Assembly: GCA_013298595.1 (NCBI GenBank)
Contig: JAAFIG010000011.1
Location: forward strand, 1 to 64,000
DNA: 64,000 nt
Reading direction: 5' to 3'
Origin: Deinococcales bacterium
GTDB lineage: Bacteria; Deinococcota; Deinococci; Deinococcales; JAAFIG01
The position numbers and the translations under genes are program-made. Each line of letters starts with the position of its first letter. Within the stretch, counting starts at the first letter, position 1. Shown here one piece after another: positions 34,006 to 63,456 of this stretch. The notes under the pieces were generated by a model. The model was not told the DNA's origin. It did no database searches and saw only the letters and a program-made list of their open reading frames with translations.

Positions 34006-34030
34006 AGACATATTTTAAAGCATACCTGAT

Positions 34031-45335: not shown

Positions 45336-46763
45336 TTATAACGAAATAATGTAACTGTTACCTGTTTGCACTTCGTAACGCACAATGCCAAATTGGTTAT
45401 GAGCAAAAATGATGTTGCCATCAAGTGGATCAAACATCAAAGCACCTCGGTTCATCGGACCAACATACCCAGGACCTTTGAGACATGGCACATTATTGGC
45501 TGTGCCAAGGCAACGCACATTTTCTCCAACTCGAGGATTTGCGGAATCAAAATCAAATATCGGTCCGAGTAACGTGCCGTTGCCCACACCCGAAGACCAT
45601 GCGACATTGCGGCTCGAGTCCCAAACAGTGTTGGTGTCGCCTACGGTTTCTTGTACTACCAATTCGCGGTTGCCTGTCTCGGTGTCTACACGCCAGTAAC
45701 TGCTACCAGCAACGGCGTATAACCATTTTTTACCACCCGATTCTCGGTAAAACAAATTGTTGCTGTTCAGGGTCATGCTACTAAAACCTGTGCCCCTTGA
45801 ACCCACACCTGTGGGTTGCCCATAAGTTGGGTCGGCTCGAGTGGTGGTGTTATCGGCATATTTGTTGTTACCTGTGGCGCTAAAGCGTGTCACCCATGAG
45901 CAAGTGCTACCGTCGGCACTGATTTTGATAATGCCATCTGGGCTGCCAAGGTTCGAGGCTTGAATGATGCTGAGATAAAAATCGCCTGTGTTAGGGTTCA
46001 TTTCAAATGGGCTACCTAAACCATTGATTTGTATTGAGCGCCGCGCCGCACTTTGAGGGCTGGTAGGAACTTGTCCGTTCTCACATTGATCGGCTGGAAA
46101 AGCACCAGCGGCATTAAATGGCACGGTTTTTTCTGTCCAAATGGTGTTGCGGTTTCCTGTAGCAGGGTCTATACGAACCACGGTGGCAGGGTTGCCTGCA
46201 TCCATTGTGAACACATAAAACTGATTGTTAAAACGTTTAACACTTCGCACTGTATGCAATGTATCACCAGAACCAACGTCTACATCGCCTTGTTTGGTCA
46301 GGTACTTACCACTAATCACTCGGCGATTACCAACAGCATTACCCGAAAAATTGATGTCTATCTCGAGCAGCACCCCGAAGTTTTTGAGGTTAGGGTCACC
46401 ACCAGCATTGCGATTATCTGACCATGTACCACCCACATAAATTTTTCGTGCGGTATTGTCGAGCATTCCACCCCAGAAGCGAACTGTTCCGGGTGTGGTG
46501 GGTACGCCATACGCCAGTTCGGCGAAGCTACTAGCGCCAGTGCCAATACGTACACCTCGAGCAGCTGCATCATTGATACTTTGTTGTGAAATACCATCAA
46601 GGTAACTACAATGTTTATCCCACTCAGCGCCTGAGCGTTTGCTCAACGAACGGCATTCAAACGGAAAAGCAGTTGCACCTCCAAACAAATCAGGGTCTGG
46701 GATACTCGAGCCACAAGCAGCTAAAACTGCAACAAAAGAAAACATACCAATAAACTTTTTCAT
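45336..46763 (-). CDS. Secreted lipoprotein, propeller-like (paralogue A)
   Basis: A 475-aa lipoprotein (lipobox LAAC, Cys17). It is closely similar along its whole length to the 47777 protein: shared blocks include WGGMLDNTARKIYVGGTWSD, NFGVLLEIDINF, MNPNTGDFYL and NQFGIVRYEVQTGN. The repeated WSDNR.., IDP..GNR, TGNRELV turns suggest a beta-propeller. No enzyme motif is recognised. The promoter carries a paired GTTGCG box, and the leader has a 5' stem-loop and a paired-CTCGAG hairpin followed by AAGGAG. Confidence 0.75.
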   Translation of the reverse strand: MKKFIGMFSFVAVLAACGSSIPDPDLFGGATAFPFECRSLSKRSGAEWDKHCSYLDGISQQSINDAAARGVRIGTGASSFAELAYGVPTTPGTVRFWGGMLDNTARKIYVGGTWSDNRNAGGDPNLKNFGVLLEIDINFSGNAVGNRRVISGKYLTKQGDVDVGSGDTLHTVRSVKRFNNQFYVFTMDAGNPATVVRIDPATGNRNTIWTEKTVPFNAAGAFPADQCENGQVPTSPQSAARRSIQINGLGSPFEMNPNTGDFYLSIIQASNLGSPDGIIKISADGSTCSWVTRFSATGNNKYADNTTTRADPTYGQPTGVGSRGTGFSSMTLNSNNLFYRESGGKKWLYAVAGSSYWRVDTETGNRELVVQETVGDTNTVWDSSRNVAWSSGVGNGTLLGPIFDFDSANPRVGENVRCLGTANNVPCLKGPGYVGPMNRGALMFDPLDGNIIFAHNQFGIVRYEVQTGNSYIISL

Positions 46764-46854: not shown

Positions 46855-46886
46855 AATGTAGAAAATAACCGCAACAAAACCGCAAC
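46855..46886 (-). promoter_or_regulatory. SARP/PhoB-type repeat-box promoter
   Basis: On the minus strand GTTGCG (46881-46886), 5 bases, GTTGCG (46870-46875), 9 bases, TACATT (46855-46860). No -35 consensus: the boxes occupy the -35 zone. Same geometry at five other genes. Confidence 0.65.
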
Positions 46887-46921
46887 AGGGTTTAAAAATG
46901 CATCTTGCAGTAAAATGCACC

Positions 46922-47446
46922 ATGTACAAAATTCGTGAAATGACTCCAAGCACACTCGAAACCGATTTACCACAAGTTGCAATGGTGCATCATCATACGT
47001 GGCTAACAACCTATGTTGGACTTGTACCGCAAAGATATCTTGATACGTTAAGTTTCGAGTCACGGCTCGAGACATGGCGTAAAAACAGCGCTAATATTGG
47101 CACCAATCGGCATTTTTTTGTTGCAGAACACGATGGAAAAATCATTGGGTACGCCGATTGTGGTGCAGTGCGCGAACAAGACACAGGTTGCGATGGCGAA
47201 CTATACGGATTTTATATTCTTCAAGAACATCAACAGCGTGGTATAGGCAGATTGCTACTCGAGGCAGTAAAAACAAATCTGCGCTCTCGAGGTTTTCAAA
47301 AAATGCTGGTCTGGGTGCTTTCAGCTAATCCCTCGAGAGCCTTTTATGAGCGCACTGGCGGGGTGTTTATCCGCGAGCAGTTTTTAGAAATCGGCGGAGA
47401 GCAATTGCTCGAGACTGGCTATGGGTATGATTTAGGGCATAGATAG
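46922..47446 (+). CDS. GNAT-family N-acetyltransferase
   Basis: A 174-aa acetyltransferase. The acetyl-CoA loop is EHQQRGIGRLLL (Q/RxxGxG/A), and the strand FFVAEHDGKIIGYADCG and the C-terminal NPSRAFYERTGGVFI match the fold. The substrate is unknown. The start is ATG 46922: TAAAAT lies 5 bases before it, so the upstream ATG at 46898 is unlikely. The stop codon TAG (47444-47446) is formed at the edge of the MITE-like element: without the insertion it would have been TAA. Confidence 0.88.
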   Translation: MYKIREMTPSTLETDLPQVAMVHHHTWLTTYVGLVPQRYLDTLSFESRLETWRKNSANIGTNRHFFVAEHDGKIIGYADCGAVREQDTGCDGELYGFYILQEHQQRGIGRLLLEAVKTNLRSRGFQKMLVWVLSANPSRAFYERTGGVFIREQFLEIGGEQLLETGYGYDLGHR

Positions 47447-47644
47447 AGGCTGTTTGAATTAGTCCTGGACGCAAAAAATCATAGCCTCATCGTGCGGAAA
47501 TCGGAATTTCTCAGGGAGTTGAGTCCAGCCAAGAATCGGAAGGGGCAAATTGGGCATCGTAGCGAAGAAATCAACTAACGACCAGAACACGATTTTTGCA
47601 GATTTGACCTAGAAATACTTTCCTACACGAATTCAAACAATCTC
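47446..47644. mobile_element. MITE-like element with TA target duplication
   Basis: A 199-bp element with 15-bp imperfect terminal inverted repeats: GAGGCTGTTTGAATT on the left and, as reverse complement, GAGATTGTTTGAATT on the right (13 of 15 match). It is flanked by TA on both sides, as for IS630/Tc1-like transposons. No ORF, no CTCGAG. It interrupts the stop codon of the GNAT gene. The remaining 130 bases up to the 47777 gene show nothing definite. Confidence 0.6.
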
Positions 47645-47776
47645 TAAGATCAACATATTAAGGAGAACTCAGGCGCTACAAGCTCAAGCAGAAATAAAAG
47701 GAAAATTGGGGCAAACACTTGGTTCACCCCACGAAAAAAAATTATAAAAGTCTTGAATAGCGTTGAAGGCAAAAAT

Positions 47777-49207
47777 TTATAACGAGAATGTGTATGTATT
47801 ACCTGTTGCTACTTCAATTCGCACCAAGCCAACAGCATCGTGAGCCATGATTAAATTACCATCGGCTGGGTCGAGGAAAATTCCGCCGCGCAACAGTGGT
47901 CCTGCTTCGCCTGATCCACGAATGCACTGAAACCACGCGGCAGTTGGGTTTAAGCAAAAAATATTGCCAAGTAACTTAGGGTTGTCTTCATCGTTAATTG
48001 TTACAGGGGCAATACCGCTGCCGTTACCTGTACCCGAAGTCCAGAGGAAACCTCGAGTTGGATCCCAGACACTGTGAGTATCGCCGGGTTCTTGTTGTAC
48101 AACCAGTTCACGGTTGCCTGTTTCGATATCAGCCCGCCAGTAACTATTGCCACTCGAGACGTACAACCAAGCTTTGCCTTTGATTTCGTGATAGTACGGG
48201 TTTGTACCATCAAAGGTCATGCTGGTGAAACCTGTTCCCCTTGGACCTGCGCCGTTTGGTTGCCCGTAGCTTGGATCAGCTTTGTTGGTGGCGTTATCGG
48301 TGTATTTGTTGTTACCTTCGGCTCGCATGCGGGTTATCCAAGAGCAGGTGCTGCCATCAGCACTGATTTTCATGATGCCTTGCGGACCTGTGCCTTTGAT
48401 TGGAATCAAGTAAAACTCGCCTGTGTTTGGGTTCATTTCAAATGGGTTGCCACTGATACTGACTTGTTTGGAACGTAACGAACTGGCTGGAACGCTTCCC
48501 GTAACCCCTTGGGCTTGTGGCACGCTGCCTTGTTCGCATTGGTCTTTAGGGAATTCGCTTTTATCCGAATACAAAATGCGTTTTTCTTTCCAGATGGTTG
48601 TGCGGTTGCCATTGCTTGGATCTATTTTCATGATTGTGGGTGGGCTACCGGGATCCATCGTGAAGGCGTAAAACATGCCATCTTTGCCGCGTTTAATGGT
48701 TCTGACTGTACGAAGTGTATCGCCTGTGCCAACATCCACATCACCTGAGCGACTGAGGTACTTACCCGAAATGACTTTGCGGTTACCCACAGAATCTGGT
48801 TTAGTCCAATCAATGTCCACTTCGTAAATCACACCAAAATTTTTGAGTTCGGGGTTGCCGCCCACATCACGGTTATCTGACCAAGTACTACCAATATAAA
48901 TTTTGCGTTTCTCGTTATCTAAAAATCCGCCCCAGTAACGGCTTGTACCCGGTTTGGTTGGGAAACCCGTTGCCAGTTGCGCGGGTCCGATACCTGTACC
49001 TAAACGCGCACCTTTGCCCCATTGATCGGCTACGCGCTGACAACGAAAATTCCAGTTCTGCACAGCTTCGGCAGGGTTAGTTGGACGGCGATCAAGCCCA
49101 CGGCAATCGATGGGAAACTTGGTTGGCAAATTTCGATTCTGTGCCAGTTGAGCCAATGCTACACCAGTCAGCGCCAATACAGACAGCGCTAGTAAACCTT
49201 TTTTCAT
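47777..49207 (-). CDS. Secreted propeller-like protein (paralogue B)
   Basis: A 476-aa protein with signal peptide (LLALSVLALTGVALAQ) and no lipobox, unlike its lipoprotein paralogue at 45336. The two are similar throughout (FEMNPNTGEFYLI, GSTCSWITRMRAEGNNKY, AHDAVGLVRIEVATGNTYTFSL), so they form a tandem duplication separated by the GNAT gene and the MITE. I start at MKKGLLA; the frame continues upstream, but the promoter lies there. The leader has a paired CTCGAG one base apart, then AGGAG. Function unknown, probably cell-surface. Confidence 0.75.
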   Translation of the reverse strand: MKKGLLALSVLALTGVALAQLAQNRNLPTKFPIDCRGLDRRPTNPAEAVQNWNFRCQRVADQWGKGARLGTGIGPAQLATGFPTKPGTSRYWGGFLDNEKRKIYIGSTWSDNRDVGGNPELKNFGVIYEVDIDWTKPDSVGNRKVISGKYLSRSGDVDVGTGDTLRTVRTIKRGKDGMFYAFTMDPGSPPTIMKIDPSNGNRTTIWKEKRILYSDKSEFPKDQCEQGSVPQAQGVTGSVPASSLRSKQVSISGNPFEMNPNTGEFYLIPIKGTGPQGIMKISADGSTCSWITRMRAEGNNKYTDNATNKADPSYGQPNGAGPRGTGFTSMTFDGTNPYYHEIKGKAWLYVSSGNSYWRADIETGNRELVVQQEPGDTHSVWDPTRGFLWTSGTGNGSGIAPVTINDEDNPKLLGNIFCLNPTAAWFQCIRGSGEAGPLLRGGIFLDPADGNLIMAHDAVGLVRIEVATGNTYTFSL

Positions 49208-49245
49208 ATTTCTCCTAAAAAATTCTCGAGTCTCGAGATGCGGGT

Positions 49246-49277
49246 AGTTTAATGACCTAGCGCAATAAAAACGCAAC
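49246..49277 (-). promoter_or_regulatory. SARP/PhoB-type repeat-box promoter
   Basis: On the minus strand GTTGCG (49272-49277), 5 bases, ATTGCG (49261-49266), 9 bases, TAAACT (49246-49251), for the 47777 gene. Confidence 0.65.
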
Positions 49278-49287
49278 AAGCATAAAT

Positions 49288-50103
49288 CTAAGGAATGTAA
49301 CCTTGGCTTAGCTCGAGAATTTCGCCTGTCACATCAGAAATAACGGCATTGAAGTACGAGTCCCAGCTAAAACCCAGTCCGCTCCAAGTACCATTGAAGC
49401 CATCCTCGAGTTGCTTTAAGCTGACATTGACATACTGTTGTACGTCTTTGAACAGTTCAACCACACCAGTTTGGGCGAACTTAAAAGTACGCAGTTGTGG
49501 GTTGGTGTTCGAGATATACAATCCACCAGGAGCTTCTTCCATACTTTTTCCAAGGCGCTGCATTTCGCGGTTGGTCGTGTAGACACTCACAAAATCAAGC
49601 ACAAATTGACCTGTCTTAATTTGGCTTTGCTTAGAAATCAGCACTGTTTGGTAATGAATACCAGTTAAGACTCGGGTATTGACTTGGATTATTTTGGTGA
49701 TTGTCGTACCAGACAACGTTAAATAAAAGTAACTCGGGCTGTACATTTCAAATTCGCTTGGTAGGGTTTCGTCAAACTCGAGAGCTAAACGCAGATTCTC
49801 GAGGGTTGTGGTTTTCAGGGTTAAATTCGGGAAAGTCAGCAGGGCTACACTGGTCTTTGCAGTGATTTTCAGGCTGCGTTTCACAGGATTTTGATTGCTC
49901 AGCACAGCTTTGTAGTGTTTGGCATTCGCTGCTAGAATAATTTTTTTAGCCACGGCATCCTTGGGAGTTAAAACATCAACGTAATCAGCATCTATGATGT
50001 AATCGTTATTACCGACTGCTTTTACCAGATTCGAGAGTTCCGCCACTTGTTGCGCGGTAGCCTGAGAGAGCAGTAAAAAACACAAGATAAACAGAATTTT
50101 CAT
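49288..50103 (-). CDS. Secreted hypothetical protein (operon copy 1)
   Basis: A 271-aa exported protein (signal peptide LFILCFLLLSQATA). Paralogue of the 56306 protein: shared blocks are KITAKTSVALLTFPNLT / NVSPKAKVTLLTFPNLA, QVNTRVLTGIHYQTVLISKQ / QVNTRAVTGVYEQAVLIAKQ, FVLDFVSVYTTNREM and GGLYISNTNP. No known domain. I start at the second of two adjacent ATGs, because AGGAG is 6 bases from it. It is the last gene of a three-gene operon. Confidence 0.7.
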   Translation of the reverse strand: MKILFILCFLLLSQATAQQVAELSNLVKAVGNNDYIIDADYVDVLTPKDAVAKKIILAANAKHYKAVLSNQNPVKRSLKITAKTSVALLTFPNLTLKTTTLENLRLALEFDETLPSEFEMYSPSYFYLTLSGTTITKIIQVNTRVLTGIHYQTVLISKQSQIKTGQFVLDFVSVYTTNREMQRLGKSMEEAPGGLYISNTNPQLRTFKFAQTGVVELFKDVQQYVNVSLKQLEDGFNGTWSGLGFSWDSYFNAVISDVTGEILELSQGYIP

Positions 50104-50112
50104 CATTCGCTC

Positions 50113-50562
50113 CTAAAAAAGTTTTTGCTTAGCTTTGGAAAGCTCAAACCCACGTTTGTCCAGATTGACACAACGCAAACGAGTCTTGGTCAGGTCGCAA
50201 GTAAAACCAGCAATTTTACGAGTTTGTCCGTACTCGAGCCGAGTCATTTTGGGTCGAAATAGCACATCCGAGTAACAAGCTCGTTCGGCTTTGCCTCGTT
50301 CGCCCATGCCAAAACGAGTACCCCAATCGAAATCACAATTTTTGGGCTTCGGTGGAATCGGAGCGGTGCTTTGTGCCACTTCGCAAATTAAATCCGTGCC
50401 GTTCAGAGCAGGGTTGATGCTGCCGTTGATCCGATAAACTTCGCAGTAAATGTTGCCCGTTGGCGTGATGATTGTGCCTAAACTCCCATCGCTGGCTTGA
50501 CCAAAACCATGTGCGACAAACAACAACATCAGGAGGCTCGAGAATCGCAAAAGGTTTTTCAT
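50113..50562 (-). CDS. Secreted DUF6636-like protein (operon copy 1)
   Basis: A 149-aa exported protein of the DUF6636-like pattern: TPTGNIYCEVY, several paired cysteines (CEV, NCDFDWG, ACYSD, FTCDLTKTRLRCVN), a LEYG turn and the C-terminal GFELSKAK. The family is best known from Actinomycetota secreted proteins. Paralogue of the 57136 protein. I start at MKNLLR (50562), next to the preceding stop. The four cysteines suggest two disulphides outside the cytosol. Confidence 0.7.
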   Translation of the reverse strand: MKNLLRFSSLLMLLFVAHGFGQASDGSLGTIITPTGNIYCEVYRINGSINPALNGTDLICEVAQSTAPIPPKPKNCDFDWGTRFGMGERGKAERACYSDVLFRPKMTRLEYGQTRKIAGFTCDLTKTRLRCVNLDKRGFELSKAKQKLF

Positions 50563-50564
50563 GA

Positions 50565-51200
50565 TTAGCACTTGGCGGTTTTACTGTTGAAAGTAAATTT
50601 GCCTGTCTTAAAATCAAAATTTAATTCGGCAGCTAAAGTGTATTTCTTGCCGCTTAAGTTAATATCAAACCCAGAGATTTTAATCGTGTCACTGCCACCT
50701 TTGAGTTCAAAGTGAATGTTCTCCGAGGGAACTTTGCATTTGCCATTGGCAAATGCCACAACTTCTGGGTAATTAAAGACTTTGGTATCGGTGGGTGGTA
50801 CTTGTTTTTTTGTTTTGACACTGTAAAACGCTAAGTCATTACCTCGTCCGTTACTGCCTTTTTGGGCGCTGGTGACCATGCCAATGTAGGTGTCTTCTCG
50901 AGTTGCGTAGGTGTTAAAAGTGACCCAGTAGGTCATTTTGCTTTCAAAAATCTGAACAAAGAACGGGGTTTTGGTGACCTTGTAACTCATTTCAAACCCA
51001 CCTGAATCTTTGAGGTTATAGGTTTTGGTGTCCGATTTGCTGGTGTCACCCATGATTTGTTTTAACACAGGAAGTTCAATGCCAGTGAATAAGAAGTTTT
51101 CGGAAGATGCAACTTTAATTAGTTCAGCAAGGCTATTGGGCGCTTGGGCAAGCGCGAGACTCGAGGCGAATAACAAACTGGCAAACAATACTTTTTTCAT
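50565..51200 (-). CDS. Secreted hypothetical protein
   Basis: A 211-aa exported protein (signal peptide LFASLLFASSLALA). It is beta-rich (FEMSYKVTKTPFFVQIFESKMTYWVTF) and has two cysteines (GKCKV, TAKC-stop). I recognise no family. It is the first gene of the operon with the DUF6636-like and the 49288 genes; the duplicate operon at 56.3-57.6 kb lacks it. Its promoter has the paired GTTGCG box, and the leader has CTCGAG, 4 bases, CTCGAG, then AAGGAG. Confidence 0.7.
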   Translation of the reverse strand: MKKVLFASLLFASSLALAQAPNSLAELIKVASSENFLFTGIELPVLKQIMGDTSKSDTKTYNLKDSGGFEMSYKVTKTPFFVQIFESKMTYWVTFNTYATREDTYIGMVTSAQKGSNGRGNDLAFYSVKTKKQVPPTDTKVFNYPEVVAFANGKCKVPSENIHFELKGGSDTIKISGFDINLSGKKYTLAAELNFDFKTGKFTFNSKTAKC

Positions 51201-51241
51201 TGGGTTTCTCCTTTACTCGAGTTTGCTCGAGGTATGGATAG

Positions 51242-51273
51242 ACTTTACGAACCTATCGCAACAAAACCGCAAC
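51242..51273 (-). promoter_or_regulatory. SARP/PhoB-type repeat-box promoter
   Basis: On the minus strand GTTGCG (51268-51273), 5 bases, GTTGCG (51257-51262), 9 bases, TAAAGT (51242-51247), for the 50565 operon. Confidence 0.65.
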
Positions 51274-51279
51274 ACAGTT

Positions 51280-52131
51280 TTATGAACGGGTCACTAAAAT
51301 GCGGCAAGGTCCATCTTTACTTTGGTTGCCTTTTAAGCCAAGCGAACCCGGAGCAAAAATCGTGTTGTTACGGAAATCACCTAAACTCAGGTCGCACTGC
51401 ATTTGATTGCTGGCATTCTGCATCTCGAGCCGAGCCATATTGCCAATGGTAAAAAGCCTAAAAGTCCAATCATTGAAGGTGTTACCATCGGGGCTGCGAA
51501 CAAGGTCGGCATCGCCAGTAAAACCATTGGGTTGGAGTTTATCGAACCACAATTCAAAACGGTAATTGAACGCCTCGAGCCGCCAGACACTGTTGGTATC
51601 TGGCATGATCTTAGCGAACCAATGCTGATTATCAAATTCAGGTTTGGTTGTGGCTCGAGACGTTTGAGTTGGGTCAGTGACGATGCTTAAAGCGCATTGA
51701 TCCTTGGCAGCAATGGGTGTGTTTGTACCATCTTGGTAGACAAAACCACCACCGCGCACACTTGCACCTCGAGCTGGCATCAGAAACACACAGTGGTATT
51801 GTCGTCCCGCCACGCTAGCGTACAAAGCGGTCATGCCTTTGTCAGGATTACCAAGTCGCACCAGCCCTTTGGTTGAACCGATTTGAATATCGCCTTCGAT
51901 GGCATTCCAAGTCTTAATGCTCGAGAAAATTCGCGCTGGATGCGTAAACGGTGCGCCTGTTACGGCTTTGGTCAGGGTGATTTGACCAAGTGCTTGCAAT
52001 TCGCCAATGCCTAAATTCCATGTTTGCCCGACCTTAAATGCTGTGAATTGTGGATTGGGAGTGGCGGCGGTTTGTGCCACAGCCAAGGCAGTCAGTAACG
52101 AAACTCCAAGAATAGCAATTGTTTTTTTCAT
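51280..52131 (-). CDS. Secreted protein with GxxW/Cys domain
   Basis: A 283-aa exported protein (signal peptide AILGVSLLTALAVA). The first half (KVGQTWNLGI...YHCVFLMP...VYQDGTN...CALSI) matches the tandem units of the 42017 protein. The C-terminal half contains a further beta-rich stretch (NSVWRLEAFNYRFELWF). Unknown function. It lies directly downstream of the RCC1-type gene, separated by a hairpin, and has its own leader with paired CTCGAG (5 bases apart) and AAGGAG. No GTTGCG box precedes it. Confidence 0.7.
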   Translation of the reverse strand: MKKTIAILGVSLLTALAVAQTAATPNPQFTAFKVGQTWNLGIGELQALGQITLTKAVTGAPFTHPARIFSSIKTWNAIEGDIQIGSTKGLVRLGNPDKGMTALYASVAGRQYHCVFLMPARGASVRGGGFVYQDGTNTPIAAKDQCALSIVTDPTQTSRATTKPEFDNQHWFAKIMPDTNSVWRLEAFNYRFELWFDKLQPNGFTGDADLVRSPDGNTFNDWTFRLFTIGNMARLEMQNASNQMQCDLSLGDFRNNTIFAPGSLGLKGNQSKDGPCRILVTRS

Positions 52132-52179
52132 GATTAACTCCTTTGCTCGAGACTGGCTCGAGACTTGATGTGTAATAAA

Positions 52180-52212
52180 TCCTCGAGCCGCGCCAGATGT
52201 GCAGCTCGAGGA
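52180..52212 (-). terminator. Terminator-like hairpin after the RCC1-type gene
   Basis: TCCTCGAGC (52180-52188) / GCTCGAGGA (52204-52212) with a 15-base loop; on the minus strand followed by TTTATT. Weak T-run, but the position just after the stop codon fits. Confidence 0.5.
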
Positions 52213-52221
52213 GAAAAATGT

Positions 52222-54222
52222 TTATGGTAGACGAATGGTGAATGCGCCAAGCAGAACAGATACTGCTGTGGGTTTATCGGCAGTTGTGGCATCATCGCCA
52301 AGCTGCCCAGTGGCATCCCTACCCCAAGCCAGCATCGTGCCATCTTCTTTCAAAGCAAGCGAGTGAAAATCACCAGCCATCACTGAAACAACATTGCTTG
52401 CACCCGAAACAGGTGCAGGGAGGGGTTTGAATGCAAGTGATGCACCATCACCTAACTGTCCGTAATCATCATTTCCCCAAGCCAACACGGTTTTATCGGT
52501 TTTGACCGCCAGTGAATGATAATCCCCTGCGGCAATGGCGGTAATCCCAGTGGCACTTGGAACAACAACAGGACTGTCTTTATTGGCTTGCGAGGCATCA
52601 TCGCCTAATTGCCCAAAGTTATCTGCTCCCCAAGCCAGCATCGTGCCATCAGACCTCAAAGCAAGCGAGTGCTGCTCACCACCCGCGATGGCAATTATAT
52701 TGGTTGCATTCAAAACAGACACAAATGTGGTCTTATTGTCAGTGTTAGCACCATCACCAACTTGCCCACTGCCATCAAATCCCCATGCCACTAGCGTGCC
52801 ATCTTGCTTCAAGGCAAGTGAGTGAAACGCACCAGCCGCAATCGCAACAACATTGCTTACACCAGCCACAGCCACAGGTGTGGGTTGATTGACAGTGGCA
52901 GCATCATTGCCCAATTCTCCTTCGCCGTCATATCCCCAAGCCATGACCGTGCCATCTTGTTTTAAGGCAAGTGAGTGAAAACCACCAGCCGCAATGGCAA
53001 CAATATTGGTGAGACCAGCCACAGGAACAGGTGTTGACTTATTGGCAATAGCTGCATCATCTCCCAATTGTCCATTGGTATCTCTACCCCAAGCCATGAC
53101 CGTGCCATCTTGTTTTAAGACAAGCGAATGTCCAGAACCTGAGGCAATCGCCACAACATTGGTTAAACCAGCAACCGCCACAGGTGTGTTTTTAGCGGCA
53201 ATGGGTACGTCGTCACCCAATGCACCGTAAGTATCTGAACCCCAAGACAGCACAGTGCCATCGGTTTTTAAGGCGAGTGAGAAATCAACACCACCAGCAA
53301 TGGTCTTCTTGACAGCCACAGGTGTTAAAGCTTGTGTGGTCGCTGTGACTTCCACACCGCCGCTCGAGCCTCCAGCACCATTGACCGATTTGACTCGGTA
53401 CATATAGGTCGTGCTGGCGGTCAGACTCGTATCAAAAAAACTTGTTCCAGAGCCGACAGTTGCTACATTCGCGTAGGTTGCTGCGCCAGTTTTGCGCTCG
53501 ACAGTGTAGCCCGTCGCACCGCTGGCAGCCACCCAAGACAAGTCAATCCGACTGCTCGAAATCACTGTCGCAGCTAAATTGGTAGGATTGGCAGGTGCAG
53601 CAACAGCAGCTTGAGTTGTTGCAGTGACTTCTATTCCGCTGCTCAAGCCACCTGAACCACTGGCTCTGACGCGGTAAGTGTAGATGGTATTCGCCGTTAA
53701 ACCTGTATCATTAAAACTATTTGCTCCGACAAGTTGGACAATGCCTACAAAGCCTGCCGAACCTGTTTTTCGGTCTATCAGGTAGCTTGTTGCACCACTT
53801 GAAGCAGTCCAAGACAAGTTGATTGCCGAAGTCGATACCACGGTAGCTGCCAGATTCGTCGGATCGGCAGGTGCAACAACGGGTGCTGTTACCGTTATCG
53901 AAAAAACTGTAACAGCGACTCCAACTGGTGCATTCAGAAGACCAATGGTGGTACTACCAACCGTTACTCCTGTGACCATACCTGCACTCGAGATGGTGGC
54001 GTTGCTCGGCTGGCTCGAGTTCATTGTCAGGGTAGGTTGAGGGACTAAATCTACGCCAGCCGCATCTTTGCCTACCGCTGTACAGGTTGTTGTTGCGCCC
54101 ACAGCAATGCTGCTCGAGGTACAGGTAATCAAAACGCTTTTCAGAACAGGTTGTACTGGCGGTGGTGGGCAAGCGGTTAGAATTGCGGCAGTCAGAACGA
54201 ACAATGGGATTAGTTTTTTCAT
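52222..54222 (-). CDS. Lipoprotein with Big2, FN3 and RCC1 repeats
   Basis: A 666-aa surface lipoprotein (lipobox LTAC). Domain order: a bacterial Ig-like domain (about 25-110, TCTAVGKDAAGVDLVPQPTLT), two fibronectin type III domains (about 115-205 and 207-295, NLSWTASSGATSYLIDRKTG), then about seven RCC1 repeats (about 300-660, SLALKQDGTVMAWGYDGEGELGND). RCC1 propellers mediate protein or surface contacts. I start at the second ATG (54222), 7 bases from AAGGAG. The leader has CTCGAG, 7 bases, CTCGAG, and a strong stem-loop at the predicted 5' end of the mRNA. Confidence 0.88.
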   Translation of the reverse strand: MKKLIPLFVLTAAILTACPPPPVQPVLKSVLITCTSSSIAVGATTTCTAVGKDAAGVDLVPQPTLTMNSSQPSNATISSAGMVTGVTVGSTTIGLLNAPVGVAVTVFSITVTAPVVAPADPTNLAATVVSTSAINLSWTASSGATSYLIDRKTGSAGFVGIVQLVGANSFNDTGLTANTIYTYRVRASGSGGLSSGIEVTATTQAAVAAPANPTNLAATVISSSRIDLSWVAASGATGYTVERKTGAATYANVATVGSGTSFFDTSLTASTTYMYRVKSVNGAGGSSGGVEVTATTQALTPVAVKKTIAGGVDFSLALKTDGTVLSWGSDTYGALGDDVPIAAKNTPVAVAGLTNVVAIASGSGHSLVLKQDGTVMAWGRDTNGQLGDDAAIANKSTPVPVAGLTNIVAIAAGGFHSLALKQDGTVMAWGYDGEGELGNDAATVNQPTPVAVAGVSNVVAIAAGAFHSLALKQDGTLVAWGFDGSGQVGDGANTDNKTTFVSVLNATNIIAIAGGEQHSLALRSDGTMLAWGADNFGQLGDDASQANKDSPVVVPSATGITAIAAGDYHSLAVKTDKTVLAWGNDDYGQLGDGASLAFKPLPAPVSGASNVVSVMAGDFHSLALKEDGTMLAWGRDATGQLGDDATTADKPTAVSVLLGAFTIRLP

Positions 54223-54270
54223 CTTCATACTCCTTACTCGAGACTCCCTCTCGAGACTGGTGTTCTTTGT

Positions 54271-54306
54271 ATCCTCGAGCCATGTGGGAGAGCATGGCTC
54301 GAGGAT
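54271..54306 (-). promoter_or_regulatory. 5'-terminal stem-loop of RCC1-type mRNA
   Basis: A perfect 14-bp stem (54271-54284 with 54293-54306, loop of 8) containing CTCGAGCC. The -10 box at 54313-54318 puts the transcription start near 54306, so the hairpin would form the very 5' end of the mRNA. It may stabilise the message or, alternatively, stop antisense transcription. Confidence 0.45.
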
Positions 54307-54312
54307 GGGCGA

Positions 54313-54344
54313 AGTGTACGAATCAATCGCAACAAAATCGCAAT
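54313..54344 (-). promoter_or_regulatory. SARP/PhoB-type repeat-box promoter
   Basis: On the minus strand ATTGCG (54339-54344), 5 bases, GTTGCG (54328-54333), 9 bases, TACACT (54313-54318), for the RCC1-type gene. Confidence 0.65.
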
Positions 54345-54359
54345 AAGGTTTTTTGGATG

Positions 54360-54391
54360 CGACGCTGGTGCGACGCAATTTGGATTATACT
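54360..54391 (+). promoter_or_regulatory. Repeat-box promoter with CGACGC hexamers
   Basis: CGACGC (54360-54365), 5 bases, CGACGC (54371-54376), 9 bases, TATACT (54386-54391), 9 bases before the ATG of the clostripain-like gene. Spacing is the same as in the GTTGCG promoters, but the hexamer differs. The longer perfect repeat is TGCGACGC. Confidence 0.55.
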
Positions 54392-54400
54392 GTTGGGGAA

Positions 54401-56278
54401 ATGAAAAAAATCCTTTACCTGTTGGTATTTTTTGCCTTCGCTTCTCGAGCCGTGGCGTTTGAATTATTACCGCCTGCGCCTGATCTTGCTTTGGCTCGAG
54501 CCGCGCAAAGTCCTGCTAATTCTTGGACAGTGCTGGTGTACTTACATGCCGATCATAACCTTGATTCCTCGAGTGTAGTGGACATGCTGGAGATGCAGAA
54601 AGTTGGCTCGAGTAACACTTTTAATGTGGTGGTGCAGTGGGACCGCTCGGAGGTTTCTGGGGTGCAACGTGGTGTGGTGCGGCTAGGTAAGTTCGATGTG
54701 GTGCAAAAATTACCTGAGTTAAATTCTGATGATCCTAAAGTGCTGGCAGATTTTATGGCTTGGGGAATTCAAAAGTACCCAGCGCAACGCTATGGTTTAA
54801 TCATGTGGGATCATGGTGGACAATGGGATGGTGGTTTTGGTGGCGACGAAACTAATAAAGGTAGTGGTATCAGTGTTATGGATATGCGGCGTTCTATGCA
54901 AGCTGCAATGGCATTGACGCAACTGAAGAAATTTGAATTTATTGCTTTTGATACTTGCTTGATGGGCGGTCTCGAGTTATTGGCTGGTTTTGCTGACCTG
55001 AGCAGTGTTTATATCGCCAATCCCGAACTCGATTTTGGTGATGGTTGGGAGTATGGCAATACCTTTGGCTACTTAAAAAACAACCCCAGTGTACCAATGA
55101 ACTTATTTGCCAGCAAAGAAAATGAGTACTGGGGTAAGCATCATAATCTTGATGAAGCCGATATCCTGTACCGCGCTCATAGTGCTTACGACTCGAGCAA
55201 ATTACCTGCACTTTTAACTGCCAGTCAAGGTTTTTCTACAGCCCTGACCAATGTCTGGGAAAACGAATCCGAAGTACTGGCTGCCCTACGAAGTCGGGTG
55301 CTCGAGTACAACATTGACACCGATGAACCTCGAGCACCAAAAAATTATGTGGATTTAGGGCATTATGCTGCTTTGGTTGGTAAAACCACTGCCGATGCTG
55401 CCTTAAAAACAGCTGCTGCAAATTTACAAGCAGCGATTAAAAACATGGTGATTGCCAAGACGCTTGGTAAAAATAATCAATCTGCCAGTGGTCTAAGTGT
55501 CTGGATGCCTGCCGATAACACCAATTTACCCGAAAATAGTGTACTCGAGACATACGCAAAGTTAAACAAAGTTGCCAGCAGTGGTTGGAATACGTTTTTA
55601 GCAGCTTGGTTTTCGACTGTTGAAAGTAATAGCCAAGCACCAACCCTTGAATTGCTCGAGAGTCGAAATTTAAGCGCACCGAGTGCCACGAAAACCGCGC
55701 AAGTGGATTTTAAGGTTGCTGGTACAGATTTAGATGGTGTTTATGCCAGTATCGGACGCGAAGTGGGGACAAGTTTTAATTTGTATGGTGATTTATTTTT
55801 TGACCGAGCCGAAGAGGGCGATTTCACAGCCGAATGGGATGGCAGTCTTATTTACTTATCCGATGGTAAGAACCGCGATTTGTTTACAGGCTTCTTTCAA
55901 GATGTTGGCGACAATACACTAGCCGCCACAGCCCAGTACAGCGAACCCAAAGACCAAGAAACCACACCAGTCATTATTTTAATGAATGCGGAAACCCTAA
56001 AAATCACAGCCATGCTCGATGATTCAGGCTCGAGTCCTCGAGAAATGACCGCAAAACCAGGAGCCACCCTCGAGTTTGAGTACTTACGTTACGAAGATAT
56101 TGATGATGAAGACCCAGATTTTGTGCCGACGGGCGGCAAAGTAATTGTGCCAAGCGCTGGTTTAAAAGCCTTAAAAAGTCTGCTTGTACCCGCGCCAAAA
56201 GGTGATTACGTATTGTTGTTTGGTGTGACTGATTGGGCGGGTAACGAACAAAACGACGAAGTTGCAATCAAAATCTAA
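54401..56278 (+). CDS. Clostripain-like (C11) cysteine peptidase
   Basis: A 625-aa exported peptidase of family C11 (signal peptide LLVFFAFASRAVAF). The domain (about 35-330) begins WTVLVYLHADHNLD. The catalytic His is in YGLIMWDHGGQWDGGF and the Cys in FIAFDTCLMGGLELL. The C-terminal 250 residues are beta-rich and may bind substrate or surface. Family members cut after Arg or Lys. The start at MKKILY is preceded by TATACT and GGGGAA. It is divergent from the RCC1-type lipoprotein, each with its own repeat-box promoter. Confidence 0.9.
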   Translation: MKKILYLLVFFAFASRAVAFELLPPAPDLALARAAQSPANSWTVLVYLHADHNLDSSSVVDMLEMQKVGSSNTFNVVVQWDRSEVSGVQRGVVRLGKFDVVQKLPELNSDDPKVLADFMAWGIQKYPAQRYGLIMWDHGGQWDGGFGGDETNKGSGISVMDMRRSMQAAMALTQLKKFEFIAFDTCLMGGLELLAGFADLSSVYIANPELDFGDGWEYGNTFGYLKNNPSVPMNLFASKENEYWGKHHNLDEADILYRAHSAYDSSKLPALLTASQGFSTALTNVWENESEVLAALRSRVLEYNIDTDEPRAPKNYVDLGHYAALVGKTTADAALKTAAANLQAAIKNMVIAKTLGKNNQSASGLSVWMPADNTNLPENSVLETYAKLNKVASSGWNTFLAAWFSTVESNSQAPTLELLESRNLSAPSATKTAQVDFKVAGTDLDGVYASIGREVGTSFNLYGDLFFDRAEEGDFTAEWDGSLIYLSDGKNRDLFTGFFQDVGDNTLAATAQYSEPKDQETTPVIILMNAETLKITAMLDDSGSSPREMTAKPGATLEFEYLRYEDIDDEDPDFVPTGGKVIVPSAGLKALKSLLVPAPKGDYVLLFGVTDWAGNEQNDEVAIKI

Positions 56279-56305
56279 TCAAGTACACTCACCCCTTGCT
56301 TCAGG

Positions 56306-57121
56306 TCAAGGGGTATATCCTTGGCGTAACTCGAGAATTTCGTTTGTGACATCAGATATGGTGGCGTAAAAATATGTTTCCCACGAGAATGTCCAACCGA
56401 ATTCTTTGCCGTTTAAACCTGCTTCGAGGTCTTTGAGGTTGACGTTGCTGTAATCGCTGGCATTTTTTAAGAGTTGGATTTGTCCGTTGCTCGAGAAGTT
56501 CAAGGTTCGTAATAACGGGTTGGTATTGGAGATGTATAAACCACTTGGGTTATCGTTCATGCTTTGACCTTCACGGCGCATTTCACGGTCGGTGGTGTAA
56601 ATATTGACAAAGTCCAACACAAATTTTCCAGCACTGATTTTGCTTTGCTTTGCTATCAGTACAGCTTGTTCGTAGACACCTGTGACTGCACGAGTATTAA
56701 CTTGGGAAATGCTGGTGACAATGTTATTGCTTTGGATAAGTTGAAAGATATAGCTTCGTTCAAATTCGCTAGGTAAAGCTTCATCGCCCGATAGCATCAG
56801 GCGTAAATTCTCGAGCGAAGTGATTTTAGGGGCTAAATTTGGAAATGTTAGTAAAGTTACTTTTGCTTTAGGGCTGACATTCAATGTCGCAAAACCCTTG
56901 GCACTATCGGAGAAAATCATTTTGTAATGCCTTGCCCACGCCTTTGGCAACTGCCCTCGAGCCACCGCCACGCTGGGTTTGACCAGTTCGGTAGCATCGG
57001 CTTTGAGTGTGATACTGCTGCCTTTTATGTTGAGTTCAGACAGGTAGGCAAATTGTGTTTGGGCAGTGGCACTCGAGAAAAAGAAGTAACTCGAGACGAG
57101 TAGCAAAAAAAGTTTTTTCAT
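56306..57121 (-). CDS. Secreted hypothetical protein (operon copy 2)
   Basis: A 271-aa exported protein (signal peptide LLLVSSYFFFSSATA), paralogue of the 49288 protein with the same order of motifs (VNTRAVTGVYEQAVLIAKQ, FVLDFVNIYTTDREM, GLYISNTNP, ISDVTNEILELRQGY). A single CTCGAG lies in the leader. It follows the DUF6636-like gene by 15 bases, as in operon copy 1. Convergent with the clostripain-like gene. Confidence 0.7.
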   Translation of the reverse strand: MKKLFLLLVSSYFFFSSATAQTQFAYLSELNIKGSSITLKADATELVKPSVAVARGQLPKAWARHYKMIFSDSAKGFATLNVSPKAKVTLLTFPNLAPKITSLENLRLMLSGDEALPSEFERSYIFQLIQSNNIVTSISQVNTRAVTGVYEQAVLIAKQSKISAGKFVLDFVNIYTTDREMRREGQSMNDNPSGLYISNTNPLLRTLNFSSNGQIQLLKNASDYSNVNLKDLEAGLNGKEFGWTFSWETYFYATISDVTNEILELRQGYTP

Positions 57122-57135
57122 AAATACCTCGAGGC

Positions 57136-57564
57136 TTAAAAGAATTTTTGTACAGCTTTAGACAGTTCAAAACCGTGTTTCTCGAGGTTAATACAGCGCA
57201 AGCGTATTGTGGTCACATCGCAGGTAAAACCCGTCACTTGCCAAGTTTTGCCATAAGCTAGCGTTTTGTAATTGGGATTTTTGATGGTGTCGCCATGACA
57301 AACCCGTTCGGGTTTACCACGTTCACCAATGCCAAAACGATACCCGTAATCCAATTGGCAATCCTTGGGTTTTGCGGGAATTTTAGCCGTAATTTCGCTC
57401 ATTTCGCATTGCATACTGGCTTTATTGGTCAGTCTATCGCGCCATGCCATACAGTGAATATTGCCGCTGGGGGTTTTGAAATTACCAATTTCTTCATAGC
57501 CTTGTGCATAGGCTAAAGCAACCAGCATAAAACTCGAGATACCAGCCAGCATAATTTTTTTCAT
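57136..57564 (-). CDS. Secreted DUF6636-like protein (operon copy 2)
   Basis: A 142-aa exported protein (signal peptide IMLAGISSFMLVALAYA) with TPSGNIHCMAW, CEMSEI, DCQLDYGYRFGIGERGKPERVC, LAYGKTW and FTCDVTTIRLRCINLEKHGFEL. It aligns with the 50113 protein, including the unusual FGxGERGKxER block. First gene of operon copy 2, with GGAGG 8 bases upstream and a repeat-box promoter. Confidence 0.72.
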   Translation of the reverse strand: MKKIMLAGISSFMLVALAYAQGYEEIGNFKTPSGNIHCMAWRDRLTNKASMQCEMSEITAKIPAKPKDCQLDYGYRFGIGERGKPERVCHGDTIKNPNYKTLAYGKTWQVTGFTCDVTTIRLRCINLEKHGFELSKAVQKFF

Positions 57565-57614
57565 AATTTTGACCTCCGCTGTACTTGTTTATTAAGTCCA
57601 TTGCTTACCGATAG

Positions 57615-57646
57615 AGTATCGCAGTTGAGCGCAACAAAAACGCAAC
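57615..57646 (-). promoter_or_regulatory. SARP/PhoB-type repeat-box promoter
   Basis: On the minus strand GTTGCG (57641-57646), 5 bases, GTTGCG (57630-57635), 9 bases, GATACT (57615-57620), for operon copy 2. On the plus strand a TATACT also lies 9 bases after the box (57656-57661), so the site could in theory serve both directions. Confidence 0.65.
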
Positions 57647-57767
57647 ATTGCAAATATACTGTGCTCGAGATAAGCAATTGGTTTTGATGCCAAAACCAAG
57701 CACGGTGGCAAAAAAAGCTGTTGCGTTTGACCTATCAAAAACAATTTCGTGTTTTATACTTTTACCT

Positions 57768-60700
57768 GTGAGTACGAATGTTCAACTCGAGTTACGGGTG
57801 TTTGCAGTGCCGAGTTTGACATTTGCTGGGCAGGTGCTGCGTTTTCCAAGCCGTAAGGGTTTGGCTTTGTTAATTTTGTTGGCTCTCGAGGGCGAACAAA
57901 GCCGTGAGAAACTGGCAAATTGGTTATGGTTGGATTCGCCCAATCCTCGAGATGCGCTACGTAATGCCTTAGCCCAAGTCAACAAGGTTTTAAGCAGCGC
58001 AGGTCTGATGCCACTGGCAGCGACACGACAAACCGTAAGCTGGCACGAGCCGACATTGTGGGTAGATGCACTGCAACTCGAGCAACACCCCTCCGAAGCG
58101 CTTTTACGCGCCATGCGTGGAGCTTGGCTAGAAGGATTTATGCTCGAGGGAGCACCTGAATTTGATTCATGGGCAACCGAACGAGGCGCGTTTTACACTG
58201 GACTTTTACAACAACAACTCGAGCATGCCATCGAAATCGCAGTGCAATCGGCTCGAGTTTCAGATGCGCTGCTGTTAGCGCAACAGCGTTTGCGTTTGGA
58301 TGCACTCAACGAAAGTGCCTATCAGCAACTGATGCGGGTGCAACGCTTAGCTGGGCGCGAAGCCGAAGCCAGAGAAACGCTTTTACTCTGTCGCACCACC
58401 TTGCAACGCGAATTGGGGGTTACCCCGAGTGCCAAAACACTGGGAGTACTAAACGAAACCTTAACAGTCATTCAAATACCCAACGAAGAAACACCTATTG
58501 GAAGAGTGATAGAGCGTGCTTGGCTCGAGGATATTCGAGCACAAAAAGCCTTTGGTTTGTTACTGGGTGAAGCAGGTGCTGGTAAAACCGCTTTGTTGCG
58601 TTCAGTATTAACACAAGCCATCTGGATTGAATGCCGCCCCAACGATGCTGCCTTACCATTCTCGAGTGTGTCGCGTGGTTTACGCAAAAGATTACGCGAT
58701 CAACCCGAATTGGCAGCGGGTTTACCCGAATGGGCTAGACTCGAGTTGGCACGTTTCTTACCCGAATTGCATCACCACCAACCCACCGAGAGTTTAGATC
58801 GTTTGCGTTTGTACGCGGCGCTCAGTCTGATTTTTCCGAACAGCAGTGCGCTGATTGTAGACGACCTGCACTTTATGGACGAAATGAGTGCGGCTTGGTT
58901 ATGGCAAGTTGCCCAGCAACGCCTCGATGATGCCAGTGCCTTAACAGTTTTGGCGTATCGTCCCAATGATATTACCAACGACACACAAGTGGCATTAACG
59001 CAACTCGAGCGTTTAGGCGCTAAATCTCAACGCATCCTGCCGCTCAGTGCCACCGATTTAGCTGTTTGGTTGCAGCGTTTACAAATCGCACCGCATCTTG
59101 CCGAAGAATTTCTTGGCTTAACCGCTGGTAATGCCTTGTTTTTTAAAGAAGCCGCTTTGGCATACCTGAGCAGTGGCAATCTCGAGCAAGGATTGATGCC
59201 GCTGTTACAACAACGTTTACAAGCCCTCAGTCCACTCGAGTGGCAATTAACCCAATTTGTGGCTGTGGCAAACAGCCAAGCCACGCTGGCACTGGCAACC
59301 CAAGTATTACAAACCGATCAATTACAAATTGCTCAAACATGGGCAAGACTCGAGCAAACCGATGTGCTGCGCGGCTCGAGATTCGCTCATGATTTACTGC
59401 GCGATGCCGCCTTGCAATTAACGCCAAGTGCCATACAAATTGCTTTAGCCAGTGGTTTACTCGAAGCCCTCGAGCAACGATTGCACCGACAAGAATTGGT
59501 TCCTGTGGCGATCCTAGCCGATTTGGCATTTCGCGCTAACGACTTGCAACGCGAAGCCAATTATCGCTTGCAAGCTGCCCTCGAAACGTACCGCATGGGA
59601 TTTATCAGCAATGGCATTGTGCATTTTGAACGCTGTATTCATTTACTCGAAGCCCAGTCCTTACTTTTTAGTGCCGAACAACTCGAGTCTTTGTACTTTG
59701 ATTTACTGCCAATTTATCGAGCCAATTTTTACACTTCCTCAAGTATGCACCCCAGCCTCGAGCAACTCCTCAGCATTTCTCGGGTTCGTGGTTTACGGCA
59801 TTTGGAAGCTGTGGTACTCGCTAATCAAGCCGATGTCTTATCAAAAAATCAACAGCTGGTAGCAGCCACCACACTGTTTAATAGTGCTTTAGAACTCGCC
59901 AAGCATCATAAACGCGCTCAAGCCACAATTTTTGAACTGCGAGCCTGGGCGGAAAATAGTACCAACCAAACCCTGCTTGCCCTCGAGAATGCCAAACAAA
60001 CCCTGATTTTGGCACAAGAATTAGCCGATTCGCACCTCGAGTTTCGGGCGTTAGAAGCCATGTATATGTTCGAGCAAAACCTGAGTTTATGGTTTGAAGC
60101 AGGTCAACACGCCATTCAAGCTGCCGAAGTGGCATTAAGTACCGATCATCATTTTCGTATGCACAGACCGTATGCCTTAACGATGGCGGCTTTCTGTGCT
60201 TTACAAATTGGCAATTTACCCAGTGCCGAACAACAAATCCGACTAGCACTAGATTTACTCGAGAACAGCGATTGGCATAATGGCTTGGGTTTTGCTAAGC
60301 GCACTTTTGCCTTGGTTTTACTCGAGCGCGACGACCTAAGTCAAGCCTTAGAAGCTGCCCTTGAGAGTATTGGGCATAACCAACAAATTCAAAATGATTT
60401 TGCGATTTACAGCGGACTGAGTTGTGTTGCCCGAATTCATATTGCTGCTAACCGACCAAGCGAAGCGTTGGTTTGTCTCGAGCAAGCCGAAGAAGTGTTA
60501 GCAAAAATCAGTGGATTACACATTGCCAATGTCGCCCAGAGTTTTCTGGATAGCCTGCGCTGCGCGGCAAAAACTCAACTAAACGAAGATGCGCTGCACA
60601 ATGCTTTGCGGGCAGTACAAACTCGAGAGAACGCCCCAAATACCAGCAGTTGGTTGTTGCTTGCCCCAAGAGAATACGAAATAGCTGCCTTGTGGAAAGG

Positions 60701-60917
60701 CGGGCAAGAAGCCTTAGCCAAACGCGAACTCGAGAAATTTATGGCATTGCATCCCGATAATCCTCGAGTACAAATTCTGCATGCAAGGGCAAAAGCAGCG
60801 GTTTTATCACTCGAGAATCAAGTAACAGCGGCTGGTCAAATTCGTCAGGAAGCCATAGCAAAAGCGGTTGAACTTGGTTTTGTCATGCAAGCAAAAGTAT
60901 TACAAAACCAAAGATAA
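57768..60917 (+). CDS. SARP-type BTAD/ATPase transcriptional regulator
   Basis: A 1049-aa activator. An N-terminal winged helix (about 1-90, LELRVFAVPSLTFAGQVLRF...LALLILLALEGEQSREKLANWLW) is followed by a BTAD domain (about 95-235, ALLLAQQRLRLDALNESAYQQLMRVQRLAG). A STAND-type ATPase comes next (Walker A LLGEAGAGKTALL; Walker B LIVDDLHFMD), and a long TPR-like C-terminus. Start GTG 57768: TATACT ends 7 bases before it, so the 40-codon open frame upstream is not translated. It neighbours the repeat-box promoters and is the best candidate for the activator that binds them. Confidence 0.9.
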   Translation: MSTNVQLELRVFAVPSLTFAGQVLRFPSRKGLALLILLALEGEQSREKLANWLWLDSPNPRDALRNALAQVNKVLSSAGLMPLAATRQTVSWHEPTLWVDALQLEQHPSEALLRAMRGAWLEGFMLEGAPEFDSWATERGAFYTGLLQQQLEHAIEIAVQSARVSDALLLAQQRLRLDALNESAYQQLMRVQRLAGREAEARETLLLCRTTLQRELGVTPSAKTLGVLNETLTVIQIPNEETPIGRVIERAWLEDIRAQKAFGLLLGEAGAGKTALLRSVLTQAIWIECRPNDAALPFSSVSRGLRKRLRDQPELAAGLPEWARLELARFLPELHHHQPTESLDRLRLYAALSLIFPNSSALIVDDLHFMDEMSAAWLWQVAQQRLDDASALTVLAYRPNDITNDTQVALTQLERLGAKSQRILPLSATDLAVWLQRLQIAPHLAEEFLGLTAGNALFFKEAALAYLSSGNLEQGLMPLLQQRLQALSPLEWQLTQFVAVANSQATLALATQVLQTDQLQIAQTWARLEQTDVLRGSRFAHDLLRDAALQLTPSAIQIALASGLLEALEQRLHRQELVPVAILADLAFRANDLQREANYRLQAALETYRMGFISNGIVHFERCIHLLEAQSLLFSAEQLESLYFDLLPIYRANFYTSSSMHPSLEQLLSISRVRGLRHLEAVVLANQADVLSKNQQLVAATTLFNSALELAKHHKRAQATIFELRAWAENSTNQTLLALENAKQTLILAQELADSHLEFRALEAMYMFEQNLSLWFEAGQHAIQAAEVALSTDHHFRMHRPYALTMAAFCALQIGNLPSAEQQIRLALDLLENSDWHNGLGFAKRTFALVLLERDDLSQALEAALESIGHNQQIQNDFAIYSGLSCVARIHIAANRPSEALVCLEQAEEVLAKISGLHIANVAQSFLDSLRCAAKTQLNEDALHNALRAVQTRENAPNTSSWLLLAPREYEIAALWKGGQEALAKRELEKFMALHPDNPRVQILHARAKAAVLSLENQVTAAGQIRQEAIAKAVELGFVMQAKVLQNQR

Positions 60918-62072: not shown

Positions 62073-62610
62073 AAACAGTGCCATTGAATTTATAGTAGCC
62101 AAGCGCAAATTCGCCCAGTGGCTCGAGCATTTCGATGGTGGTACCTTTTTGAGGGAACTTCAAGTACCAACTGAGTTCGTCTTGCTTCCATTTTTCTTCA
62201 CTGCGTTTTTGGTTGTACACACCAAGCATTGCCTCGAGTTGTTTAGTATTTGGTTTAGCCACAACCACAGTTTGTTTACTGTATGTTTTGCCGTTCCAAA
62301 TTGCAAAAATCAGATCAGTGGTAATACACGCTGGTCCGCAACCCGTGGCGGTAATACCAATCAGGTCGGTGCCGTTTTTCTTACGCCAAACAGCAAATTC
62401 ACCTCTACCCTCCCAGAAACCATCTTTACCACCATTAAACTCGAGGTAATCGTTTTTGACATCTTGGGTTATAATTTTGCGCCCTGACGTGTCATAAATA
62501 CTTTTTGGTAACATTTTCCAATGCTCGAGTAAACTGCGTTTGCTTTGAGCGGCAACCAAACTCGAGATGCTTAAACCAATCAAAACCAATCCTAGAATTA
62601 TTTTTTTCAT
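62050..62610 (-). CDS. Secreted hypothetical protein
   Basis: A 186-aa exported protein (signal peptide IILGLVLIGLSISSLVAA). It is beta-rich, with a Cys pair (GCGPACITTD) and a conserved-looking WNGKTYSKQ strand. No family recognised. The start at MKKIIL overlaps the stop of the preceding gene (ATGA), so it is coupled to it. Confidence 0.65.
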   Translation of the reverse strand: MKKIILGLVLIGLSISSLVAAQSKRSLLEHWKMLPKSIYDTSGRKIITQDVKNDYLEFNGGKDGFWEGRGEFAVWRKKNGTDLIGITATGCGPACITTDLIFAIWNGKTYSKQTVVVAKPNTKQLEAMLGVYNQKRSEEKWKQDELSWYLKFPQKGTTIEMLEPLGEFALGYYKFNGTVFTFEVAK

Positions 62611-63455: not shown

Positions 63456-63456
63456 A

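Follow-up and report, generated by a model that had tools for sequence, protein, structure and literature searches.

The repeated promoters that precede a cluster of secreted-protein genes in the window (the whole 64-kb stretch of DNA analyzed here, from the uncultured Deinococcales genome G000) are very probably the operator of a cluster-situated SARP-type activator encoded at 57768-60917 on the plus strand. This protein of 1049 amino acids combines a winged helix, a BTAD domain (Pfam 1.3e-7), an AAA_16 ATPase domain (Pfam 1e-8), and TPR repeats, and it is most likely the activator of the secreted-protein cluster. The assignment draws support from conservation in a sister species, the pairing of a similar regulator with a similar operator in genome G003, the recognition helix common to these two regulators, and an 11-bp rule found beside BTAD genes in general. 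All of this is inferred from sequence, most of it taken from metagenome-assembled genomes.

The initial annotation described five minus-strand boxes of the form RTTGCG-N5-RTTGCG with one fixed layout, and all five are present in the window with zero mismatches, each followed after exactly 9 bases by its named -10 box, giving an identical 6-5-6-9-6 spacing throughout. The operator-promoter at 57615-57646 (GTTGCGTTTTTGTTGCG, 9 bp, GATACT) is placed between the divergent regulator gene and the genes 57136-57564 and 56306-57121, which it is predicted to drive. At lower coordinates on the same strand are those at 54313-54344 (ATTGCGATTTTGTTGCG, 9 bp, TACACT), 51242-51273 (GTTGCGGTTTTGTTGCG, 9 bp, TAAAGT; predicted to drive 50565-51200, 50113-50571, and 49288-50106), 49246-49277 (GTTGCGTTTTTATTGCG, 9 bp, TAAACT), and 46855-46886 (GTTGCGGTTTTGTTGCG, 9 bp, TACATT). 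Just beyond the end of the window, in the extended contig, a sixth box of identical geometry (C3:64098-64114, -10 TAAACT; operator-promoter C3:64083-64114) precedes an operon that includes 62607-63527. All six sites fall within 17 kb on one strand.

A fourth-order Markov model of the window (200 simulations) predicts 0.05 boxes per 64 kb; once the -10 box is included, the expectation falls to 0.0. Across the whole 4.58-Mb genome the box alone has 12 matches compared with 5 in the backwards control, and 6 of the 12 are the cluster sites. The remaining six occur at chance-level frequency and none has the T-run and -10, so the promoter set is local and restricted to the cluster, and a genome-wide regulon in the window species is ruled out. 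The fixed pattern proposed earlier thus stands inside the cluster, where it is far above the Markov expectation, and falls outside it, where matches are at the level of chance.

Alignment of 11 sites, six from G000 and five from the sister species G001 (metagenome-assembled genome JAAFJQ01), refines the motif to T-RTTGCG-N-TTTT-RTTGCG-N-T (11/11 sites), followed by a TAnAnT-like -10. The element is composed of two 9-bp units, T-R-TTGCG-N-T, placed an 11-bp turn apart, with 7 bp between the second unit and a -10 whose first base is T at 9 of the 11 sites. In both species its only variation falls at R and N, in the 9-bp spacer, and within the -10, parts of which differ. The 60-bp flanks upstream of the sites are unrelated for all site pairs except one orthologous pair, which argues that the sites within one genome are not recent copies. 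Similar leaders downstream of the sites are due to orthology and to CTCGAG repeats. The sequence CTCGAG is over-represented 19-31 times, at about 6 copies per kb, in each of the family's four genomes, and 3-11 times elsewhere in the order Deinococcales, in its other families; it is a highly iterated palindrome like the cyanobacterial HIP1 and is often paired as hairpins in leaders.

The first gene after every one of the 11 sites begins with a signal peptide or lipobox, as called by a simple hydropathy rule that is heuristic, and for the six sites of G000 this bears out the earlier proposal that the boxes precede secreted-protein genes or operons. The cluster genes of the window all lie on the minus strand. 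The box next to the regulator is followed by a secreted DUF6636 protein (57136-57564, Pfam 6e-16, with a signal peptide) and a secreted protein (56306-57121). A lipoprotein with Big_2/fn3/RCC1 repeats (52222-54225) is followed by a secreted protein (51280-52131) that in the sister species stands directly after the orthologous box. The next group contains a secreted protein that is 93% identical in the sister species (50565-51200), a second secreted DUF6636 protein (50113-50571, Pfam 1.4e-11), which is a paralogue of 57136-57564, and a secreted protein (49288-50106), the paralogue of 56306-57121. The all-β protein at 47777-49204 (475 amino acids; signal peptide, predicted structure) has a 53% identical lipoprotein paralogue at 45336-46763. 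The secreted protein 62607-63527, in the operon of the sixth box, shares 74% identity with a gene that a box is predicted to drive in the sister species. The targets in the cluster are thus three pairs of paralogous families and the repeat-containing lipoprotein, with DUF6636 and RCC1 the only named families. The model of 47777 has a pLDDT of 50, and its top Foldseek matches include many β-propellers at a TM of about 0.3; on this weak model the 475-amino acid pair 47777/45336 may adopt a β-propeller fold. Two other likely surface proteins of the window, a large PKD-domain protein (24262-27264) and a 983-amino acid protein with papain-family peptidase matches (27540-30491), are not preceded by a box.

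The paralogy of several targets (45336/47777, 49288/56306, and 50113/57136) is what would be expected if the promoters were alike through recent tandem copying of gene together with promoter, with no common regulator. This origin is very unlikely, as the upstream flanks of non-orthologous sites show background scores, in contrast to the invariant 17-bp box and -10, the boxes precede unrelated families (the RCC1 protein, DUF6636, 50565, and the 64200 homologue), and paralogues in both the window and G001 carry boxes in new contexts.

A scan of G001 returns five perfect sites including the -10, and the backwards control, with one mismatch allowed, gives 1 match forward and 0 in reverse. The five sites are distributed over three contigs (C36, C44, and C368) with flanking genes that differ from those of the window cluster; the three contigs could still be chromosomal neighbors. 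The sites precede homologues of window genes as well as new genes, all with signal peptides. Judged by its downstream leader, the site at 54313-54344 is orthologous to C36:8357, and the site at 51242-51273 is orthologous to C36:9337. In the same contig the 47777 homologue lacks a preceding box, and the region (L083, about 10560-10755) is taken up by a REP-like palindromic insertion (ATTGCTTCACTTCGTACCTC...). The genomes G002 and G003, which represent other genera of the same family, have zero perfect sites in the motif scan. The BTAD orthologue of 57768-60917 is 62% identical in G001, and the best match in G002/G003 is about 31% identical, so that presence and absence of the regulator across these three genomes parallels that of the boxes. 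No box is found within 8 kb on the G001 contig carrying the orthologue, which counts against the pairing, though this contig ends at the gene. An exact scan of the genomes of about 85,000 species finds the operator in the sister genome and as nine singletons in unrelated taxa; the singletons are taken as chance, and a wide spread of the exact operator is rejected.

Regulators of the OmpR/PhoB family likewise bind 11-bp direct repeats that replace the -35 element, and two of the G001 box loci lie beside response-regulator/kinase pairs. An OmpR/PhoB-type response regulator might accordingly read the boxes with the BTAD gene as a bystander, an explanation that is improbable given how these two response regulators are conserved. 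The one on C36 has counterparts of 96-100% identity in G000, G002, and G003, and two of these genomes lack boxes, indicating a housekeeping pair that lies near the boxes by accident. The one on C44 has no orthologue in G000, where the best match is 61%. Both are excluded as readers of the boxes by this conservation pattern. In addition, the excess of 11-bp repeats described below is tied to BTAD genes, the neighborhoods scanned being those of BTAD genes.

The candidate activator itself lies close to one site, with 122 bp separating the last box from the ATG of 57768-60917, close to the 120 bp given in the initial annotation. It lies directly beside one box only (1/6 in the window cluster), which counts against the assignment. 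On the plus strand of this intergenic region (57630-57660) a TATACT is present 8 bp after the last box. A single operator might therefore act on the regulator gene as well as on the secreted-protein operon, allowing autoregulation. The combination of winged helix and BTAD that characterizes the SARP family is found in 57768-60917, the BTAD scoring above the Pfam cut-off and the profile alignments covering both parts. The profile of 18 relatives matches the structures of AfsR (8hvr/8jke) and EmbR (2fez) over the SARP domain, aligning to positions 39-288 of AfsR and 5-271 of EmbR, and a profile restricted to the winged helix has AfsR as its sole match. The window SARP domain alone gave no PDB relative by phmmer; only the family profile found one. 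A single-sequence AlphaFold model of this domain (pLDDT 47) was set aside. The segment LRNALAQVNK is aligned by the winged-helix profile to Arg-87-Lys-95 of AfsR, which places Asn and Gln at the positions of the base-contacting Thr-88 and Arg-92. The Trp and Arg corresponding to the backbone contacts Trp-74 and Arg-87 are conserved in 12/12 aligned BTADs, and the positions of Thr-88 and Arg-92 vary among paralogues.

It had been suggested that this or another winged-helix regulator of the window switches on the surface proteins together, and it is the adjoining BTAD protein for which the sequence data argue. The protein encoded at 30922-34011, named earlier as a second BTAD protein, has no Pfam BTAD match; it has an AAA_16 ATPase domain at its start and TPR repeats, and its only helix match, near residue 884, is weak. 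The response regulator at 155-817, also put forward as a candidate, lies 46 kb away and nothing links it to the boxes.

Promoters with 11-bp repeats but other words are found in the neighborhoods of other BTAD genes. The general rule was evaluated on BTAD neighborhoods from 12 genomes (2.18 Mb, 106 BTAD genes) and 0.46 Mb of G000 control regions. The strict scan required NNNRCG repeated exactly, with TAnnnT 9-10 bp later, at repeat distances from 7 to 16. In the BTAD regions of G000 outside the cluster it returns 8 sites at 11 bp and no more than 1 at each of the other distances, and the same counts are obtained in G003, which serves as a validation set since the idea was derived from the window genome; in the control regions there is 1 site at 11 bp and again no more than 1 at each other distance. 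The operator search was refined on G000; the other genomes provide independent support, as does the repeat distance, which serves as an internal control. A scan for any hexamer covered 111 BTAD-like genes in the 12 genomes. Sites within 300 bp outside a BTAD gene make up 35/97 of those at 11 bp compared with 12/235 at all other distances (Fisher p 4e-12), a few sites being counted on both strands at every repeat distance because a direct repeat is also a direct repeat on the other strand. The only repeat distance enriched near BTAD genes is 11 bp. An 11-bp site lies within 300 bp of 29 of the 106 BTAD genes, and any other repeat distance accounts for 0-2; the other 77 genes have no strict operator within 300 bp, which counts against the rule. 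Signal peptides are called in 38/57 target genes at 11 bp versus 16/55 at other distances, the figure for all ORFs being 25%.

Several words recur in two genomes: GGAACG in G000 (C21) and G003 (C78), GCTACG in G001 and G003, GCAACG in G002 and G003, and GCCAACG in G023 and G029. A second operator class, TCAGG/TTTCAG with an 11-bp repeat and a -10, is seen beside or near BTAD genes (G000:C13:66000-80925, L185; G000:C67:20000-40000, L151; G001:C33, L177) and once directly before a BTAD gene. In the window, a clostripain-family (C11) gene that runs divergently at 54353-56278 carries a separate 11-bp repeat, TGCGACGCTGGTGCGACGC (54358-54390, plus strand), followed by TATACT 9 bases before an ATG. 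The word in TGCGACGCTGGTGCGACGC is also present beside the G001 BTAD genes L194 and L195, which may place the C11 gene in another SARP regulon.

These data also bear on whether an alternative sigma factor, instead of an activator, could recognize the repeats. Sigma-factor regulons do show a fixed pair of -35-like and -10-like elements, but this reading is the least probable of those considered. The two copies in the element are nearly exact and lie one helical turn apart, a repetition that a -35 with a single reader would not need; the same geometry with other words is present beside BTAD genes; and the -10 is of the TAnnnT type usual in the phylum, experimentally validated for Deinococcota and often found without a -35 (PMC12340547).

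The word of the window boxes is itself paired with one type of recognition helix. In the 2.18 Mb fetched, NTTGCGN5NTTGCG occurs within 300 bp of exactly 2 of the 106 BTAD genes, that of the window and that of G003:C56. The latter is the BTAD most similar to 57768 in G003, and TTTGCGTTTTCGTTGCG-N9-TATCGT is located 45 bp from its gene. The recognition helix LRNALAQ(V/I)N is common to both proteins, whose winged helices are 43% identical, compared with 27-34% for the other aligned BTADs and 74% for the G001 orthologue. Across 30 helix-operator pairs, assigned automatically, differences between recognition helices go together with differences between the nearest operators (Mantel r 0.29 for five positions and 0.35 for the helix, p 0.0005), which suggests that helix and operator word are linked by a code that can be read. 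A rule in which Gln at the Arg-92 position reads the G of GCG was rejected; two BTADs (L135 and L226) have this Gln with other words, so the code does not reside in a single residue.

In the proposed mechanism, the winged helix of 57768 would bind GTTGCGNTTTTGTTGCG, the 11-bp GTTGCG pair, with the two T-R-TTGCG-N-T units one helical turn (11 bp) apart standing in for the -35 element. The bound protein would contact RNA polymerase and activate the secreted-protein genes, and its ATPase/TPR part would sense a signal. The same design, with other operator words, would operate beside many paralogous BTAD regulators of Deinococcales. On balance we favor the broader view that Deinococcota possess an expanded SARP-type family in which each member has its own 11-bp word (mostly NNNACG, here NTTGCG) and runs an insulated secreted-protein module, the word being predictable from the recognition helix and the pairs of activator and promoter being orthogonal. 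SARPs are textbook switches of Streptomyces antibiotic clusters and are numerous in Deinococcota. The present analysis provides concrete candidate operators for about 29 of these regulators and a candidate regulon for 57768, making the role of the expansion directly testable, and indicates secreted surface proteins as their targets. Many naturally distinct activator-promoter pairs would be on offer, and the wiring from regulator to target may be readable from sequence.

Among known systems, PhoB/OmpR boxes have similar 11-bp direct repeats but belong to a different regulator family, no member of which is linked to the window sites. A literature search found no BTAD/SARP operators described in Deinococcus or outside Actinobacteria. 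Deide_19260 of Deinococcus deserti, the one studied in the phylum, induced after irradiation and with targets called unknown, is a SARP-type response regulator (PMC3564903); it shares phylum and type with 57768 but has a CheY-like receiver domain and no described operator. Like the Streptomyces SARPs AfsR, ActII-ORF4, DnrI, and PimR, which often lie within their target clusters, 57768 has a winged helix with BTAD, is cluster-situated, and is associated with 11-bp direct repeats over the -35 region, the last 8 bp from the -10 (PMC10936776, PMC10972967, PMC5930380). It differs in that its host belongs to Deinococcota and not Actinobacteria, its targets would be secreted proteins and lipoproteins and not antibiotic genes, and each Deinococcota paralogue appears to have its own word (GTTGCG, GGAACG, GCTACG, GCAACG, and others). 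In SARP promoters the direct repeats are 11 or 22 bp apart, and 8 bp separate the 3' one from the -10 (PMC10936776); the layout recognized in the initial annotation agrees with this, as the heptamer RTTGCGN is repeated at 11 bp and ends 8 bp before the -10 at 11/11 sites. The AfsR box of 22 bp is centered at -29.5, and each half is bound by one protomer of a dimer arranged side by side, which makes the contact otherwise made at the -35 (PMC10936776); the 22-bp box described here would be centered near -28.5 if the -10 starts at -12. AfsR resembles 57768 further, with the same SARP-ATPase-TPR domain order in about 1000 amino acids and two repeats in a 22-bp box, although AfsR is global and phosphorylated by Ser/Thr kinases, whereas 57768 would act locally and has Asn and Gln in place of Thr-88 and Arg-92 at the base-reading positions.
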